NCBI RefSeq assembly: GCF_003386865.1
Contig: NZ_QTUA01000001.1
Span: 2,852,001 to 2,916,000 of the forward strand
DNA from: Calidifontibacter indicus
Lineage (GTDB): Bacteria > Actinomycetota > Actinomycetes > Actinomycetales > Dermatophilaceae
Length of the DNA: 64,000 nucleotides
Direction: 5' to 3'
The notes under the pieces were generated by a model. It was given only the letters and a program-made list of their open reading frames with translations. It was not told where the DNA came from and ran no database searches. Positions 1 through 45,271 of the stretch are shown piece by piece. The translations under genes were made by a program, and so were the position numbers. Each line of letters begins with the position of its first letter. The stretch's first letter is position 1.

Positions 1-1015
1 CCAACGAGGCCGCGATGGGATCGTCGCGCAGAGCCTCGAGCACCAGCACGAAGGCGGCCACCCCGCACAACGCAACGAGGGATTCCGCGGTGCCCCACGG
101 GTCGGGCCGGTAGACCGAGTACGGCACCTTCCGTCCGCCCCACCAGAGCCCGAGCGCCCCCAGCAGCAGACCGAGTACGACGAATCCGCGTCCGATCCAC
201 ACCGGTGTGCCGGTCTGTTCGCCGTCGGCGGAGGTCGATTCGCCGAGCAGTCCGTACAACCCGACACACAACGCCATCAGTCCACCGAGCGACAGCGCCC
301 CCATCAGGATACTGTCGCGGCGGGTGGTCTCGGCCCGGTTGCCGAAGCCCCGCGCATCCATCGAGGCGGCCAGCAGCAACGACCGGTCGAGGGTGTCCTG
401 CAGCACCGGCAGCGCGATCTGCGGCACGCCGCGCAAACCCGACGCGGTGCTCCCCCGCAGCTGCCGCGCGCGCCGCACCCGCACCGCGCTCTCGGCCAGC
501 TGCGGCACCACGGTCAGGGCGATGACGACGGCCGTGCCGACGTCACGCACCGCGGCCGGCAGCGACCGCAGCAGCCGTCGCGGGTTGGCGAGCACGTTGG
601 CCGCGCCGAAGCACGTGATCATCGTGGCCAATCGCAGGCCCTCGCTCGCCGCCGCGGCCAGGTCTTCCACGGCGATCGGCCCGAGCAACTGGATGCCGGC
701 AGCCCACGAGGGAAGGTCGACCGCCGGCAGCCGCACCAGCACGGTCGGCCCGGTCTTGGCGCCGACGAGCACGAACAGGAGCACCCGGCTGACCACGACG
801 AACACGCCGAGGTAGAGGTACATCCGGAACGACCGAGCCCACGGTGCATTGGGACGACGGTTGACCACCACGAAGACGACCGCGCCGAGCGCGAGCAGAA
901 GCAGCATCGGATTGGTGGTCTGGGTGGCGGCGGCACCGAGGCAACACGCCCACAGCCACCACGCCCCAGGGTGCACGAAGCGGGGCGCCCATCCTCCGGT
1001 ACTGCCTGCGACCAC
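1..1015 (-). CDS. ECF transporter transmembrane (T) subunit, CbiQ/EcfT family; 3' end beyond window
   Basis: This is the energy-coupling membrane subunit of an ECF-type vitamin importer, linking an S subunit to the cytoplasmic ATPases. The reading frame starts at a GTG eight bases after the stop of the upstream DUF4430-like gene and stays open to the window edge, about 338 codons. Several hydrophobic segments are visible, and the family's coupling motif appears as ASMDARGFG, preceded by an Arg-rich helix (VRVRRARQLRG). It is the third gene after a cobalamin riboswitch, so cobalamin or a precursor is the likely substrate. The ATPase and S-subunit genes are expected just beyond the left edge. 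The family call is firm; the substrate is inferred from context. Confidence 0.85.
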   Translation of the reverse strand, partial: MVAGSTGGWAPRFVHPGAWWLWACCLGAAATQTTNPMLLLLALGAVVFVVVNRRPNAPWARSFRMYLYLGVFVVVSRVLLFVLVGAKTGPTVLVRLPAVDLPSWAAGIQLLGPIAVEDLAAAASEGLRLATMITCFGAANVLANPRRLLRSLPAAVRDVGTAVVIALTVVPQLAESAVRVRRARQLRGSTASGLRGVPQIALPVLQDTLDRSLLLAASMDARGFGNRAETTRRDSILMGALSLGGLMALCVGLYGLLGESTSADGEQTGTPVWIGRGFVVLGLLLGALGLWWGGRKVPYSVYRPDPWGTAESLVALCGVAAFVLVLEALRDDPIAASL

Positions 1016-1022
1016 TCCCCGA

Positions 1023-2051
1023 TCAGTCCTGCGGACGACGGCGGAACCAGGCGATGACGGCGCCTGCACCGAGCAGCGCCACGGCCCCACCGCCGGCGAC
1101 CAGGCCGAGGTTGGTGCCGCCACCGCCGCCGTTGTTGTCGGGCTGCGCGACGGCGACATCGGTGCCCGTCGGGACACCGGTCGTCGAGGCGTTCGTCGAG
1201 GCGTCAGCTGAGGCCGAGGTCTGCGACGACGGATCCTGCGACCGGTTCTGCGACGACGAACCGGTAGCCGTACTCGACGAGGTGGACGAGGTCGCGCCGG
1301 CCTTCTTCGACCCAGCGGCCGATGCCGACCCGGACCCTGCGCTCGATCCCGACGTGGGCACCGAACCAGCGGTGCCCGAACGAGGTGCCGTCGAGGACGA
1401 GCCGGGCGCCGTCGACGACGGCCGGGCGGCCGTCGAACTCGGGTGCGCCGCAGTCGAACTCGGACACGTCGAGGTGGAGCTGGGCCGCGGGCTCGTGCTC
1501 GTCGGCCGTGTCGTGCTCGTGGCGCTCGTCGTGCTCGTCGCGGACGGCTTGGTCGGGGTGATCGGCGCGATGCCGGGCGCAGCGCCCGATCCGAACCGCC
1601 AGCCGACGCTGCTGCCCTGCGGCGCAGGCATCGAGGCCGCACCCATCTGGGAGTAGGTCCAGCCACTGCCCGGACGGCCACTGAAGACGGCCCAGTAGGC
1701 AGTGCTCGGCGCCGCGCGCTGGCACGGATCACTGGCCGGCTGCCCACTGATCCGGCACACGAAGTAGCCCGCTTCCCGGGCGGCTCGGGTGGTCTGGAAC
1801 CCGGCGGCCTGCGTCGCCTGCAGCGCGCTGGAGTAACTCCCTGGAGCGCATCCGGTGGCGATGCCGCCACCGGGGAATTGCACGACCACCGAGACACCCG
1901 TGCTGCCGGTGCAACCGGCTGCCTGGCTCGACGGTGCCTGCACGAAGCCGACGAGTCCGACGAACCCCAGGGCCAGCCCGAGCGCGACGAACAGCCTCAG
2001 CGCGGTGCTCCCGGCGCGCGCCGGGCGACGATCACTTGCGACGGCGGCCAT
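1023..2051 (-). CDS. secreted, C-terminally anchored DUF4430-like (SCO2322-type) protein
   Basis: This surface protein of about 342 residues probably takes part in cobalamin capture. It has an N-terminal hydrophobic signal ending near SSQA|AGC, then a compact domain of about 110 residues (VSVVVQFPGG, AGF, YFVCRISG, YWAVFSG, GWRFGSG). That pattern is typical of DUF4430, the fold of the C-terminal domain of transcobalamin. A Ser/Thr/Pro/Ala-rich stalk of about 150 residues follows, then one transmembrane helix and an RRR tail, so the domain faces outward. The ATG at 2051 has a GGAG before it and overlaps the upstream stop by 20 bases. An upstream start at 2129 would overlap far more and was not chosen. 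The domain call comes from residue pattern only. Confidence 0.7.
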   Translation of the reverse strand: MAAVASDRRPARAGSTALRLFVALGLALGFVGLVGFVQAPSSQAAGCTGSTGVSVVVQFPGGGIATGCAPGSYSSALQATQAAGFQTTRAAREAGYFVCRISGQPASDPCQRAAPSTAYWAVFSGRPGSGWTYSQMGAASMPAPQGSSVGWRFGSGAAPGIAPITPTKPSATSTTSATSTTRPTSTSPRPSSTSTCPSSTAAHPSSTAARPSSTAPGSSSTAPRSGTAGSVPTSGSSAGSGSASAAGSKKAGATSSTSSSTATGSSSQNRSQDPSSQTSASADASTNASTTGVPTGTDVAVAQPDNNGGGGGTNLGLVAGGGAVALLGAGAVIAWFRRRPQD

Positions 2052-3315
2052 AGGCTCCAGCCCCTGCGCCGACGGTGGCGATGAGCGCCACGGCCCCGGC
2101 CAGCACGCCGAGGTCGGCTCCCCCGTCACCGGTCGGGCCGTCGGTGACGACCGCCGGGCCGGTCACGGTCGAGGTCGACGAAGCGGCCACCGACGTGGTG
2201 GGAGACGTGGTGGACGCTGACGAGGACGATGTGGACGACGTGGTGGACGCCGAGGTGCTCGACGTGCTGCTGCTGGTAGTCGTGCTGCAGTCGACGGCCG
2301 CGGTCGCGGCGCCGTGCGCGGTCACCGACACGTACGGCTGCAGGGTGAGCCCGAACGCCGCCTGCACGGTGCTGCGGTTCTCCTGGTCACCGGGTGCCCC
2401 CGCGGCCAACTTGGTGGTGTAGGTCGCACGGTCGTAGGCGATGGCGCCGCGCAACGGCGCCGGCGCGTCGCAGCCGAACTGCAGCGACTTCACGAACGCG
2501 GTCGCACGAGCGGCGTTGGCCGACTTGCCGGTCACCGAGAAGGCGACGGCGGCCAGGCCGGTGCTGTTGCTGTTCACGGCGGAGGTGGTCGAGCCGCCGC
2601 CCACACCACCGGACGCCTGCTGCTTCCCGGCGAGGTAGTCGGCACCGCGGGTGGCGGCAGCACTGTCGCCCACGGCTGCGAGCGCCTGCACCGCGAAGGA
2701 GGTCGCGTCCGGGTCGCTGGCGCAGCCGGTGTCGCCGGGGTTGAGCTTGAACCCGCCGTCGGTGCACTGCTGGGACTTCAGGAAGGCGATGGCATTGGCC
2801 GAAGGGTTCACGCCCGAGCGCTTGAGCGCGATGAGCGCCCACGACTGGGACAGGTTGTTGGAGTAGTCGCCGTACTCGGACTTGTCGGAGAATCGCCCGT
2901 TCGCCGCCTCGAGGCCGCGCAGGTCAGTGACCAGTGCGCCGGTCGAGCGTCCGGTGGCCTTGAGCATGACGATCTGCTTGGCCAGCGACCCGCTGTAGCG
3001 CTCGGCACCGGCACCGTAGTAGGCGCTGCCGTTCGCGACCATGTAGTCGGCGGCACGGCCCATCTCGGTCTGCCCGGCGCCGGTCGTGGCGAGCGCGAGG
3101 ATCGCGTCGTTGGTGAGGCCGTAGTCGGCGTACGGGGTGCCGTCGAAGGTGGTGGACAGGTGGTGTCCGCCGGCAGCGAGCTGCGAGACGAGGTAGGACG
3201 CGACACCGACCTCGGGGGTGGTCGCGGCCTGAGCGGTCGACGTGCCGGCCAGGGCAAGGGCGGCGAGCGCGGCAGTGCCCGCGAGACCCGCGCGGGCGGT
3301 GGTGTTGAGGGTCAT
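2032..3315 (-). CDS. secreted alpha/alpha-toroid (prenyltransferase/squalene-oxidase repeat) protein, transcobalamin alpha-domain-like
   Basis: The 427-residue product has a signal peptide cut near TAQA|ATTP and a helical region of about 300 residues. That region carries repeats typical of terpenoid-cyclase/prenyltransferase toroids (QQCTDGGF, SFAVQALAAVGD, STVQAAFGL). A Ser/Thr-rich stalk, one transmembrane helix and an RRRK tail follow. No catalytic cyclase motif is evident, and secretion argues against lipid cyclisation. The same toroid fold forms the N-terminal domain of animal transcobalamin and intrinsic factor. The gene is first in its operon, directly behind a cobalamin riboswitch, and precedes a DUF4430-like gene and an ECF T subunit. 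The inferred role is extracellular corrinoid binding. The start has the strong ribosome site GAAGGA. Confidence 0.75.
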   Translation of the reverse strand: MTLNTTARAGLAGTAALAALALAGTSTAQAATTPEVGVASYLVSQLAAGGHHLSTTFDGTPYADYGLTNDAILALATTGAGQTEMGRAADYMVANGSAYYGAGAERYSGSLAKQIVMLKATGRSTGALVTDLRGLEAANGRFSDKSEYGDYSNNLSQSWALIALKRSGVNPSANAIAFLKSQQCTDGGFKLNPGDTGCASDPDATSFAVQALAAVGDSAAATRGADYLAGKQQASGGVGGGSTTSAVNSNSTGLAAVAFSVTGKSANAARATAFVKSLQFGCDAPAPLRGAIAYDRATYTTKLAAGAPGDQENRSTVQAAFGLTLQPYVSVTAHGAATAAVDCSTTTSSSTSSTSASTTSSTSSSSASTTSPTTSVAASSTSTVTGPAVVTDGPTGDGGADLGVLAGAVALIATVGAGAGAYGRRRK

Positions 3316-3325
3316 GGTGATCCTT

Positions 3326-3358
3326 CCAGGACGGCCGGCGTGCGGGAGCCGGTCCTGG
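3326..3358 (-). promoter_or_regulatory. hairpin next to the ribosome site, probable riboswitch expression platform
   Basis: CAGGACCGGC and GCCGGCCGTCCTG form an imperfect stem ending directly before the GAAGGA ribosome site of the toroid gene. It lies between the cobalamin aptamer and the start codon and has no U run, which suits translational control. The switching mechanism is inferred. Confidence 0.45.
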
Positions 3359-3384
3359 TGGGGTCCGACGCTCCGCCCGTAGAC

Positions 3385-3505
3385 CTCGACGGGGAGTGAG
3401 CTCGTCTCCGCGTCGGCGTTCCGGCTCGCCCTCTCGGGCCTACGGTTGCGGGTCAGCGCCGGACTTCGACCGGCTTTCCCTCCGCGGATACGCCGGTCAC
3501 TCTAC
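3385..3505 (-). promoter_or_regulatory. cobalamin riboswitch
   Basis: On the minus strand the leader contains GGGAAAGCCGGTCGAAGTCC (from 3480), then GGCGCTGACCCGCAACCGTA. This closely matches the conserved cobalamin-aptamer core (GGGAA, CCGGTG-A-TCCGG, CTGACCCGCAACCGT). A shortened B12-box-like stretch, GAGCCGGAACGCC, lies near 3428-3416. The element precedes the toroid protein gene by about 70 bases. It predicts that cobalamin represses this uptake operon. Confidence 0.9.
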
Positions 3506-3573
3506 GCCGCGCGCCGGGCGCCCCCGACATGCGTCCGGTGGGTGTGAGATGGGTAGGCGTCGGGACCGGGAGG

Positions 3574-44219: not shown

Positions 44220-45271
44220 CTCTCACGACTCAGGATCTGCGCGACGCGATGGACGCGTACGTCGACGAGGTGCGCGTGCCGAACAGCGAAGCCATGCTCG
44301 CCGGCGTACGCGACCGGGTGCGGGCCGACCGCCGACGCGGGCGCACCCGCTTGGTGGCCGCTGTCGCCGCCGGGGTGCTCGCCGTCGGCGCGGCCGTCGG
44401 TGTGAACCACGTGTGGCCGGAGCAGACGCTCACCCCGGCCGAACAGGTGAAGAAGGCCGGCGCGCACCTACCGTTGTTCGTCGGCGGCTACAGACTGATC
44501 GGAGTGCAGGAGGTAGCGACACATTCCGGAGACCCCCACGAGCAAGCGCCGACGGCGTCGATGATCACCGACCTTCGCGCCAGGACGAGTGCGGGAGCTT
44601 TCGCAGTGTTCTCGTGCGACGACATGCTCACGACCGGCACCGGAATGATCGACACGGCGATGCTGGTGACAGGGGACGGTGCCGGGCGCACAGGCTGCTA
44701 CTCCGCGGACGAGCCCGAACTGCAGCAGCCTGCGTTCGGCCCTGTGGTCTCATCGCTCGAGCTCTCCACGTCGCGGGTCGGCCTGATCTCAGCGGACGGC
44801 AAGATCCGCGCGAAGGTACCTGTCGGTATCTACGTGCCCGCGAAGTGGGGCACCTTTCCCACCCCGACCACAACGGTCAACGTCGAAGAACAACCGCCGC
44901 CGACGCCGTCCGCCGACGTGATAACGGCCAACGGGCACGGGAACGCCGCGGGCACGACATCTGTCACGATCACACCGCAGACCTCGGGAAAGCTCAGCTT
45001 GTTCGTGAACCTGACATCGGGTTCGGTGGGCCAGTTCCGTGCGCGTGTCGACGGCGCCGACACAATTGCCGGCGTTCCCGCAGCGGCCACCGACGGTTGG
45101 TCTCCGGTCTGGAAGCCCGGGTTGACCATCGTGTTCGGGAAGACGGTCGACGCGAAGGCCGGCGTGCCGATCACGGTCGTGGTCGACGCCAAGGACAACC
45201 GCGGGAACTGGGTCGTGGAGGTGGCGGTCATGCCAGGCTCCGCCGCCCCCACTAGCACCACCACACCGTGA
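44216..45271 (+). CDS. membrane protein partner of the sigma factor, putative anti-sigma factor
   Basis: The 351-residue product has an N-terminal cytoplasmic segment of about 40 residues, an Arg-rich stretch (VRADRRRGRTR), one transmembrane helix near residues 44-61 and a large outer part. The C-terminal 100 residues look beta-rich (TSVTITPQTSGKLSLFVNL ... GNWVVEVAVMPG), like a secreted beta-sandwich domain. No zinc-binding anti-sigma motif is seen. The ATG overlaps the sigma gene stop, so the two are coupled. Its anti-sigma role is inferred from this layout. Confidence 0.7.
   Translation: MTLTTQDLRDAMDAYVDEVRVPNSEAMLAGVRDRVRADRRRGRTRLVAAVAAGVLAVGAAVGVNHVWPEQTLTPAEQVKKAGAHLPLFVGGYRLIGVQEVATHSGDPHEQAPTASMITDLRARTSAGAFAVFSCDDMLTTGTGMIDTAMLVTGDGAGRTGCYSADEPELQQPAFGPVVSSLELSTSRVGLISADGKIRAKVPVGIYVPAKWGTFPTPTTTVNVEEQPPPTPSADVITANGHGNAAGTTSVTITPQTSGKLSLFVNLTSGSVGQFRARVDGADTIAGVPAAATDGWSPVWKPGLTIVFGKTVDAKAGVPITVVVDAKDNRGNWVVEVAVMPGSAAPTSTTTP

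Follow-up and report, generated by a model that had tools for sequence, protein, structure and literature searches.

Animals carry vitamin B12 (cobalamin) on transcobalamin, intrinsic factor and haptocorrin, single chains in which an alpha/alpha toroid is joined to a small beta domain and which are handed to an endocytic receptor. Descriptions of bacterial energy-coupling factor (ECF) importers assign, to our knowledge, the capture of the vitamin solely to the S subunit in the membrane. The ECF importer assigned to cobalamin in Lactobacillus delbrueckii, ECF-CbrT, comprises a T subunit, two ATPase domains and the S subunit CbrT, which is one of several S subunits on a shared ECF module and binds B12 alone with nanomolar affinity (PMC5997447). 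Surface-exposed extra B12 binders occur in riboswitch-linked uptake loci of Bacteroides, where BtuG is a beta-propeller, BtuH has a different B12-binding domain, and the partner at the Gram-negative outer membrane is BtuB/BtuFCD (PMC6977713, PMC8941943). Here we describe an operon at the left edge of a 64,000-nucleotide stretch of the Calidifontibacter indicus genome, hereafter the window (G000:C1:2852001-2916000 of a 3.6-Mb genome), that probably serves to take up corrinoids (vitamin B12), with a transcobalamin-like surface binder of two chains supplying a dedicated ECF importer.

The operon resembles each of these systems in part. Like the animal carriers, it offers an alpha/alpha toroid and a small beta domain, and several relatives encode the two in a single secreted chain in the same order. 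Unlike in those carriers, the domains in the window are separate chains, each predicted to be tethered to the membrane, with no detectable sequence similarity to the animal proteins, an ECF importer as partner, and a ligand that we infer to be a corrinoid. Like ECF-CbrT, the system has a T subunit, two ATPase domains and an S subunit, but its ECF module is dedicated and comes with two extracellular proteins, which would be surface-exposed B12 binders in the manner of BtuG and BtuH. The SCO2321/SCO2322 gene pairs of Streptomyces belong to homologous operons with a riboswitch, a toroid, a beta-like protein, T, a fused ATPase pair (A-A) and S (Streptomyces-like loci L099, L100, L102); the window's proteins fall below both curated cut-offs for those families, and the SCO2322_fam domain is apparently circularly permuted. 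No description of SCO2321/SCO2322-type proteins as B12 binders was found in the open-access full text searched, where the single hit to SCO2321 was a paper on a skin-delivery peptide; the first-pass annotation of the window likewise named no functional description of them as a transcobalamin-like pair.

Five genes follow the riboswitch on the minus strand, encoding the toroid protein TOR, the beta-like protein S22, and ECF T, A-A and S. The window holds the first three, and the remainder was completed from the genome (L001, the 10 kb left of the window).

3382-3515, minus strand: cobalamin riboswitch leader, from a lineage covariance model; RF00174 core match at 3404-3478.
2032-3315, minus strand: TOR, predicted secreted, membrane-anchored alpha/alpha-toroid protein of 427 residues, SCO2321-like, candidate alpha-domain chain (NF053823, anchor features, toroid profile, model of a fused relative).
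1023-2051, minus strand: S22, predicted secreted, membrane-anchored protein of 342 residues (AlphaFold model, PDB structure matches).
1554-1913, minus strand: putative DUF4430/transcobalamin-beta-like domain of S22 (structure model).
1-1015, minus strand: ECF T (EcfT/CbiQ-type), C-terminus past the window edge, ending at L001:9849 (PF02361, E 1.5e-5; conserved beside TOR and S22 in relatives).
L001:8218-9852, minus strand: ECF A-A fusion, outside the window, same operon.
L001:7427-8221, minus strand: ECF S-type protein, outside the window, same operon.

S22 begins 20 bases before TOR has ended, ECF T ends 152 bases past the window's left edge, and 4-base overlaps join T to A-A and A-A to S. 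The first-pass annotation had named the riboswitch, two secreted proteins, each with a Ser/Thr stretch, a C-terminal helix and an Arg tail, and the T subunit, and had read them as a transcobalamin-like pair. All of these elements were recovered; the rest of a complete ECF importer lay past the edge, where that annotation could not see it.

S22 consists of a signal peptide, a domain of ~120 residues, a Ser/Thr stalk, a membrane helix at ~315-333 and the tail FRRRPQD, and scores below the cut-off of 85 bits against SCO2322_fam (NF040672; E 0.01, 16.1 bits). The AlphaFold model of its domain (window 1539-1925, alignment of 81 rows) has a predicted local distance difference test (pLDDT) score of 85.8 and a predicted template modelling (pTM) score of 0.83. 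All fourteen PDB entries that match this model with Z ≥8 are either 3u7z or beta domains of transcobalamin, haptocorrin or intrinsic factor. The best match (Z 9.7) is 3u7z, a DUF4430-type protein from Ruminococcus gnavus that is labelled as putatively metal-binding. The animal carriers follow (2bb6, 5no0, 5np4, 4kki, 3kq4 and 2pmv; Z 8.0-8.8, root-mean-square deviation (rmsd) 3.0-3.6, 93-96 residues aligned), and the next, unrelated entries stand at Z 5.0. Foldseek gives the same ranking. The predicted structure is diagnostic for the transcobalamin-beta/DUF4430 fold, a likeness that none of the sequence methods applied detects. S22 differs from 3u7z in falling below Pfam DUF4430 by sequence and in four conserved cysteines, two of them invariant and two nearly invariant across the 81 aligned domains. 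Searching the S22 profile against PDB sequences returned one antibody match, which is meaningless.

The halves of the S22 profile match the SCO2322_fam domains of L050, L051, L099, L100 and L102 in reversed order. When the profile was permuted, it gave mostly single hits spanning most of the SCO2322_fam domain, with small margins (37.1 against 29.1 bits in L050), and this domain thus looks, from its sequence, like the S22 domain in circularly permuted form. In L. delbrueckii, cbrS adjoins cbrT (PMC5997447), and our guess is that cbrS might encode a DUF4430 protein.

TOR has a signal peptide, a toroid, a Ser/Thr stretch, a C-terminal membrane helix at ~402-420 and the tail GRRRK, and matches SCO2321_fam below the cut-off of 300 bits (NF053823; E 2.4e-23, 82.7 bits). 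Among PDB sequences the matches listed for its family profile are cyclases and other toroids, with squalene-hopene cyclases best (E 5e-32). The toroid of a fused relative (L108, described below) likewise finds cyclases first in VIA-align (2sqc, Z 24.0, rmsd 3.4, 267 residues aligned), and it aligns with the intrinsic factor alpha chain 2pmv_B at Z 19.3 (rmsd 3.1, 230 aligned). The modelled toroid is not diagnostic by itself, its fold being common to many other toroids; it is through the fused relative's model and the family profile that the window's TOR can be placed, as a prediction, in the transcobalamin alpha-domain fold. The cyclase matches could instead be taken to mean that TOR is a secreted squalene/terpene cyclase or prenyltransferase-type enzyme with S22 as a structural partner. 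We consider this highly improbable. None of the 110 TOR domains has DxDD, the acid motif that these type II terpene cyclases share; most have DxDS or DxDA at that place (DPDAT, residues 201-205, in the window). In addition, TOR is predicted to be exported and tethered, and the riboswitch, the ECF genes and the fusion to a transcobalamin-beta-like domain would be left unexplained. The conserved polar residues of TOR (T68/D70, K113, Q157, D203/T205 and N250) recur with a spacing of ~45 residues. This appears to resemble the spacing of transcobalamin contact residues and is a lead rather than a test.

That the two proteins form one device as a transcobalamin-like binder is suggested by their natural fusions. 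Single chains with the toroid ahead of S22, the transcobalamin order, are encoded in L037:5906-7474, L087:6053-7612, L088:6454-8058, L107, L108 and, as a fragment, L110, and chains with S22 ahead of the toroid, some with two toroids, in L122, L131, L137, L139, L172, L177 and L178. Between the riboswitch and the ECF genes of L087 and L088, no surface protein other than the fusion is encoded. The occurrence of fusions in both orders suggests that the TOR and S22 chains work together. For modelling we took the L108 protein, a secreted fusion of 458 residues from Amycolatopsis suaedae, with a 78-row alignment that includes the window's two domains (pLDDT 80.7, pTM 0.67, with low confidence in the linker region). 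Its first eleven Foldseek matches in the PDB are intrinsic factor and transcobalamin (E 1.3e-6 to 7.5e-5), aligned over 395-488 columns, mostly near the whole chain, and they rank above the squalene-hopene cyclases. The transcobalamin-domain folds that the first-pass annotation had proposed were thus found by structure prediction, directly for the S22 domain and by way of the fused relative for the toroid. In two further TOR-S22 fusions (L090:6108-8384 and L101:6129-8576), long C-terminal repeats replace the membrane helix; by inspection, these extensions look like cell-wall-binding repeats.

The regulatory link to B12 comes from the leader of the operon. The Rfam model RF00174 gives window 3404-3478 a score of 24.1 bits (E 3e-4), short of the gathering score of 31.5. 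This is its fourth-best match in the genome, the three remaining clear ones being grouped at the cob gene cluster (C1:448-457 kb). A lineage covariance model was built from 32 leaders of relatives with the window left out, among them those of L108, L126, L143 and L154, which pass Rfam gathering. It finds window 3382-3515 with 87.4 bits (E 5.8e-22). The runner-up, at window 45099-45184 on the plus strand (13.7 bits, E 0.04), is probably a chance match. The 19 modelled pairs are 96.7% paired in the leader alignment and ten have changed on both sides. The covariation score is 0.43, against 0.12 for shuffled and ≤0.13 for slid controls, a comparison favoured by the structure having come from the same alignment. 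Folding places a hairpin in the window leader just upstream of the ribosome-binding site. The riboswitch is real, although Rfam alone is equivocal about it.

Upstream of TOR or S22 in relatives, RF00174 matches do reach the gathering level, for example in L040, L041, L045, L047, L051 and L053, and in A. suaedae, Thermomonospora echinospora, Embleya scabrispora and Hamadaea tsunoensis. A riboswitch-core pattern run over the 1.36 Mb of 74 named loci (described below) gave 65 sites, against 4 in shuffled sequence. All but one of the 65, namely 64, are followed within 900 nucleotides, on the same strand, by a TOR or S22 domain. In T. echinospora (L126:1-3953) the operon diverges from a riboswitch-led gene for MetE, the B12-independent methionine synthase. 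Another riboswitch in L126 precedes a small gene and a gene for a FecB/BtuF-like lipoprotein. In a different locus, a group II intron match (L042:5010-5109) was seen near a riboswitch-led TOR gene that stands on its own. Streptomyces coelicolor is credited with nine B12 riboswitches (Borovok 2006, as cited in PMC4991794).

By its gene content the operon qualifies as a dedicated (group I) ECF importer, since subunits T and S are encoded together with both ATPase domains. The A-A fusion scores 281 and 271 bits against TIGR04521 and TIGR04520, below the equivalog cut-offs. The S subunit has homologues of which 24 of 33 match PF12822, with the genome's own member unmatched; some homologues give weak PF12822 or PF07155 matches and a sub-threshold hint of the folate family. 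It could be argued that such an importer, under B12 control, takes up cobalt or another B12 precursor and that the surface proteins capture the metal or precursor. Cobalt transporters are often found in cobalamin riboswitch regulons (PMC3766115), the T subunit belongs to the CbiQ family, and CobN is present, so that the organism probably makes its own B12. We nevertheless think this very unlikely. The same genome encodes CbiM and CbiQ above their equivalog cut-offs (298 bits against 180 and 126 against 112) in the cob cluster, directly downstream of another cobalamin riboswitch (L194:2803-4533), and cobalt has in this CbiMQ system a separate importer. The window's T subunit reaches only 11.2 bits against the CbiQ equivalog model, with a cut-off of 111.8, the S subunit gave no match to CbiM models, and both surface proteins have predicted folds found in B12 carriers. 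The S subunit and ATPases past the edge show no clear sign of serving another vitamin; such a sign is what the first-pass annotation had named as refuting its proposal. With B12-binding enzyme domains at four places in the genome, and with CobN, B12 is probably used as well as made by the organism, and the importer would then serve B12 salvage. Behind ECF S the operon is followed by rpsO- and pnp-like genes (by inspection).

The operon is found in actinobacteria of soil and other environments. The gene order riboswitch, TOR, S22, T, A-A, S recurs in about a dozen genomes of family relatives, and matches to the fused relative occur in at least 36 of 296 genomes in a sample of the phylum. A scan of 84,980 species genomes for an S22 motif yielded the 74 named loci, which include Micromonospora, Salinispora, Streptomyces, Amycolatopsis, Kribbella, Thermomonospora and Embleya. 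TOR, S22, T, A-A and S occur together in 53 of the 57 named loci longer than 15 kb, which had been picked by S22 only; the association of the pair with riboswitches and ECF genes, for which the first-pass annotation had suggested scanning other genomes, is widespread. In L049:5108-8498, three S22-like domains lie in neighbouring open frames before the ECF genes, one of them at the end of a very long frame.

Several findings weigh against a two-chain corrinoid binder. The S subunit belongs to no family of known specificity and has no useful PDB match. Pfam DUF4430 matched nothing in the whole genome or among the window proteins, and transcobalamin is absent among the PDB sequence matches listed for the TOR and S22 profiles. 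For the S22 domain the Foldseek E-values are weak (0.06-0.3), though the ranking is uniform, and the toroid alone fits squalene-hopene cyclases better than intrinsic factor. The L108 model departs from intrinsic factor and transcobalamin by a whole-chain rmsd of 10.5-12.7 A (TM-scores 0.28-0.44), meaning that both domains are recognised but their mutual placement is not confirmed. Finally, some operons have no toroid (L050, L051), and toroids occur with no adjoining S22 in L042, L043, L089, L093, L095 and L097; it follows that a locus need not always have both chains side by side.

The toroid-less operons, which have a permuted S22 (SCO2322_fam), raise the question of whether S22 alone captures the corrinoid with the S subunit, leaving the toroid a dispensable accessory or a binder of something else. 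The isolated human transcobalamin beta domain has, by the title of PDB entry 5np4, been crystallised with cyanocobalamin. Yet the toroid is kept with S22 in those 53 long loci and repeatedly fused to it, and in several genomes it stands alone behind its own riboswitch. We regard capture by S22 alone as unlikely, if less so than the cobalt and cyclase alternatives, and favour the two-chain binder.

Many relatives encode an extra pair that lacks anchors and is sometimes fused, and that may leave the cell to act as a diffusible scavenger. Judged simply by whether the C-terminus has a stalk and an anchor, 18 loci carry a soluble TOR, a soluble S22, an anchored TOR and an anchored S22, in this order on one strand, and others have variants. 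The unanchored copy is the fused one in L107 and L037. In A. suaedae a riboswitch-led secreted fusion (L108) lies apart from an anchored pair with ECF genes (L154). Our searches found no second, unanchored pair in the window's genome, only the anchored pair. The presence of soluble beside anchored copies suggests a diffusible carrier and a tethered receiver, between which corrinoids may be relayed.

Taken together, the findings support the interpretation of the first-pass annotation and suggest the following scheme. When adenosylcobalamin is low, the riboswitch would permit expression of the operon, as is established for this RNA family. TOR and S22, which sequence features predict to be exported and tethered by stalk and membrane helix, would then close on a corrinoid between them as counterparts of the alpha and beta domains; fold, fusion and genomic context all point this way. 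The operon structure and the biology of ECF importers suggest that the cargo would pass to the S subunit for ATP-driven import by T and the fused A-A. The parts are of known kinds, and what appears new is their combination: the folds of the B12 carriers split into two tethered chains and coupled to a dedicated ECF importer. A wider reading is possible, and we offer it tentatively. Actinobacteria may possess, in complete form, the prokaryotic equivalent of the animal B12 carriers, possibly related to their source, in which diffusible and tethered pairs, as two chains or one, form two tiers that relay corrinoids to dedicated ECF importers, which would then not always depend on the S subunit alone.

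If correct, an extracellular binder encoded within the operon would break the S-subunit-only rule for ECF importers. SCO2321/SCO2322-type proteins, which occur across the Actinomycetota (Streptomyces, Micromonospora, Salinispora, Amycolatopsis and others), would gain a function, and the DUF4430 proteins of bacteria a suggested one. The operon would offer a bacterial relative for transcobalamin and intrinsic factor that bears on their origin before animals, and its separate chains allow the roles of the two domains to be tested. Diffusible bacterial B12 carriers, should they exist, would also bear on B12 competition in soil and in the sea.

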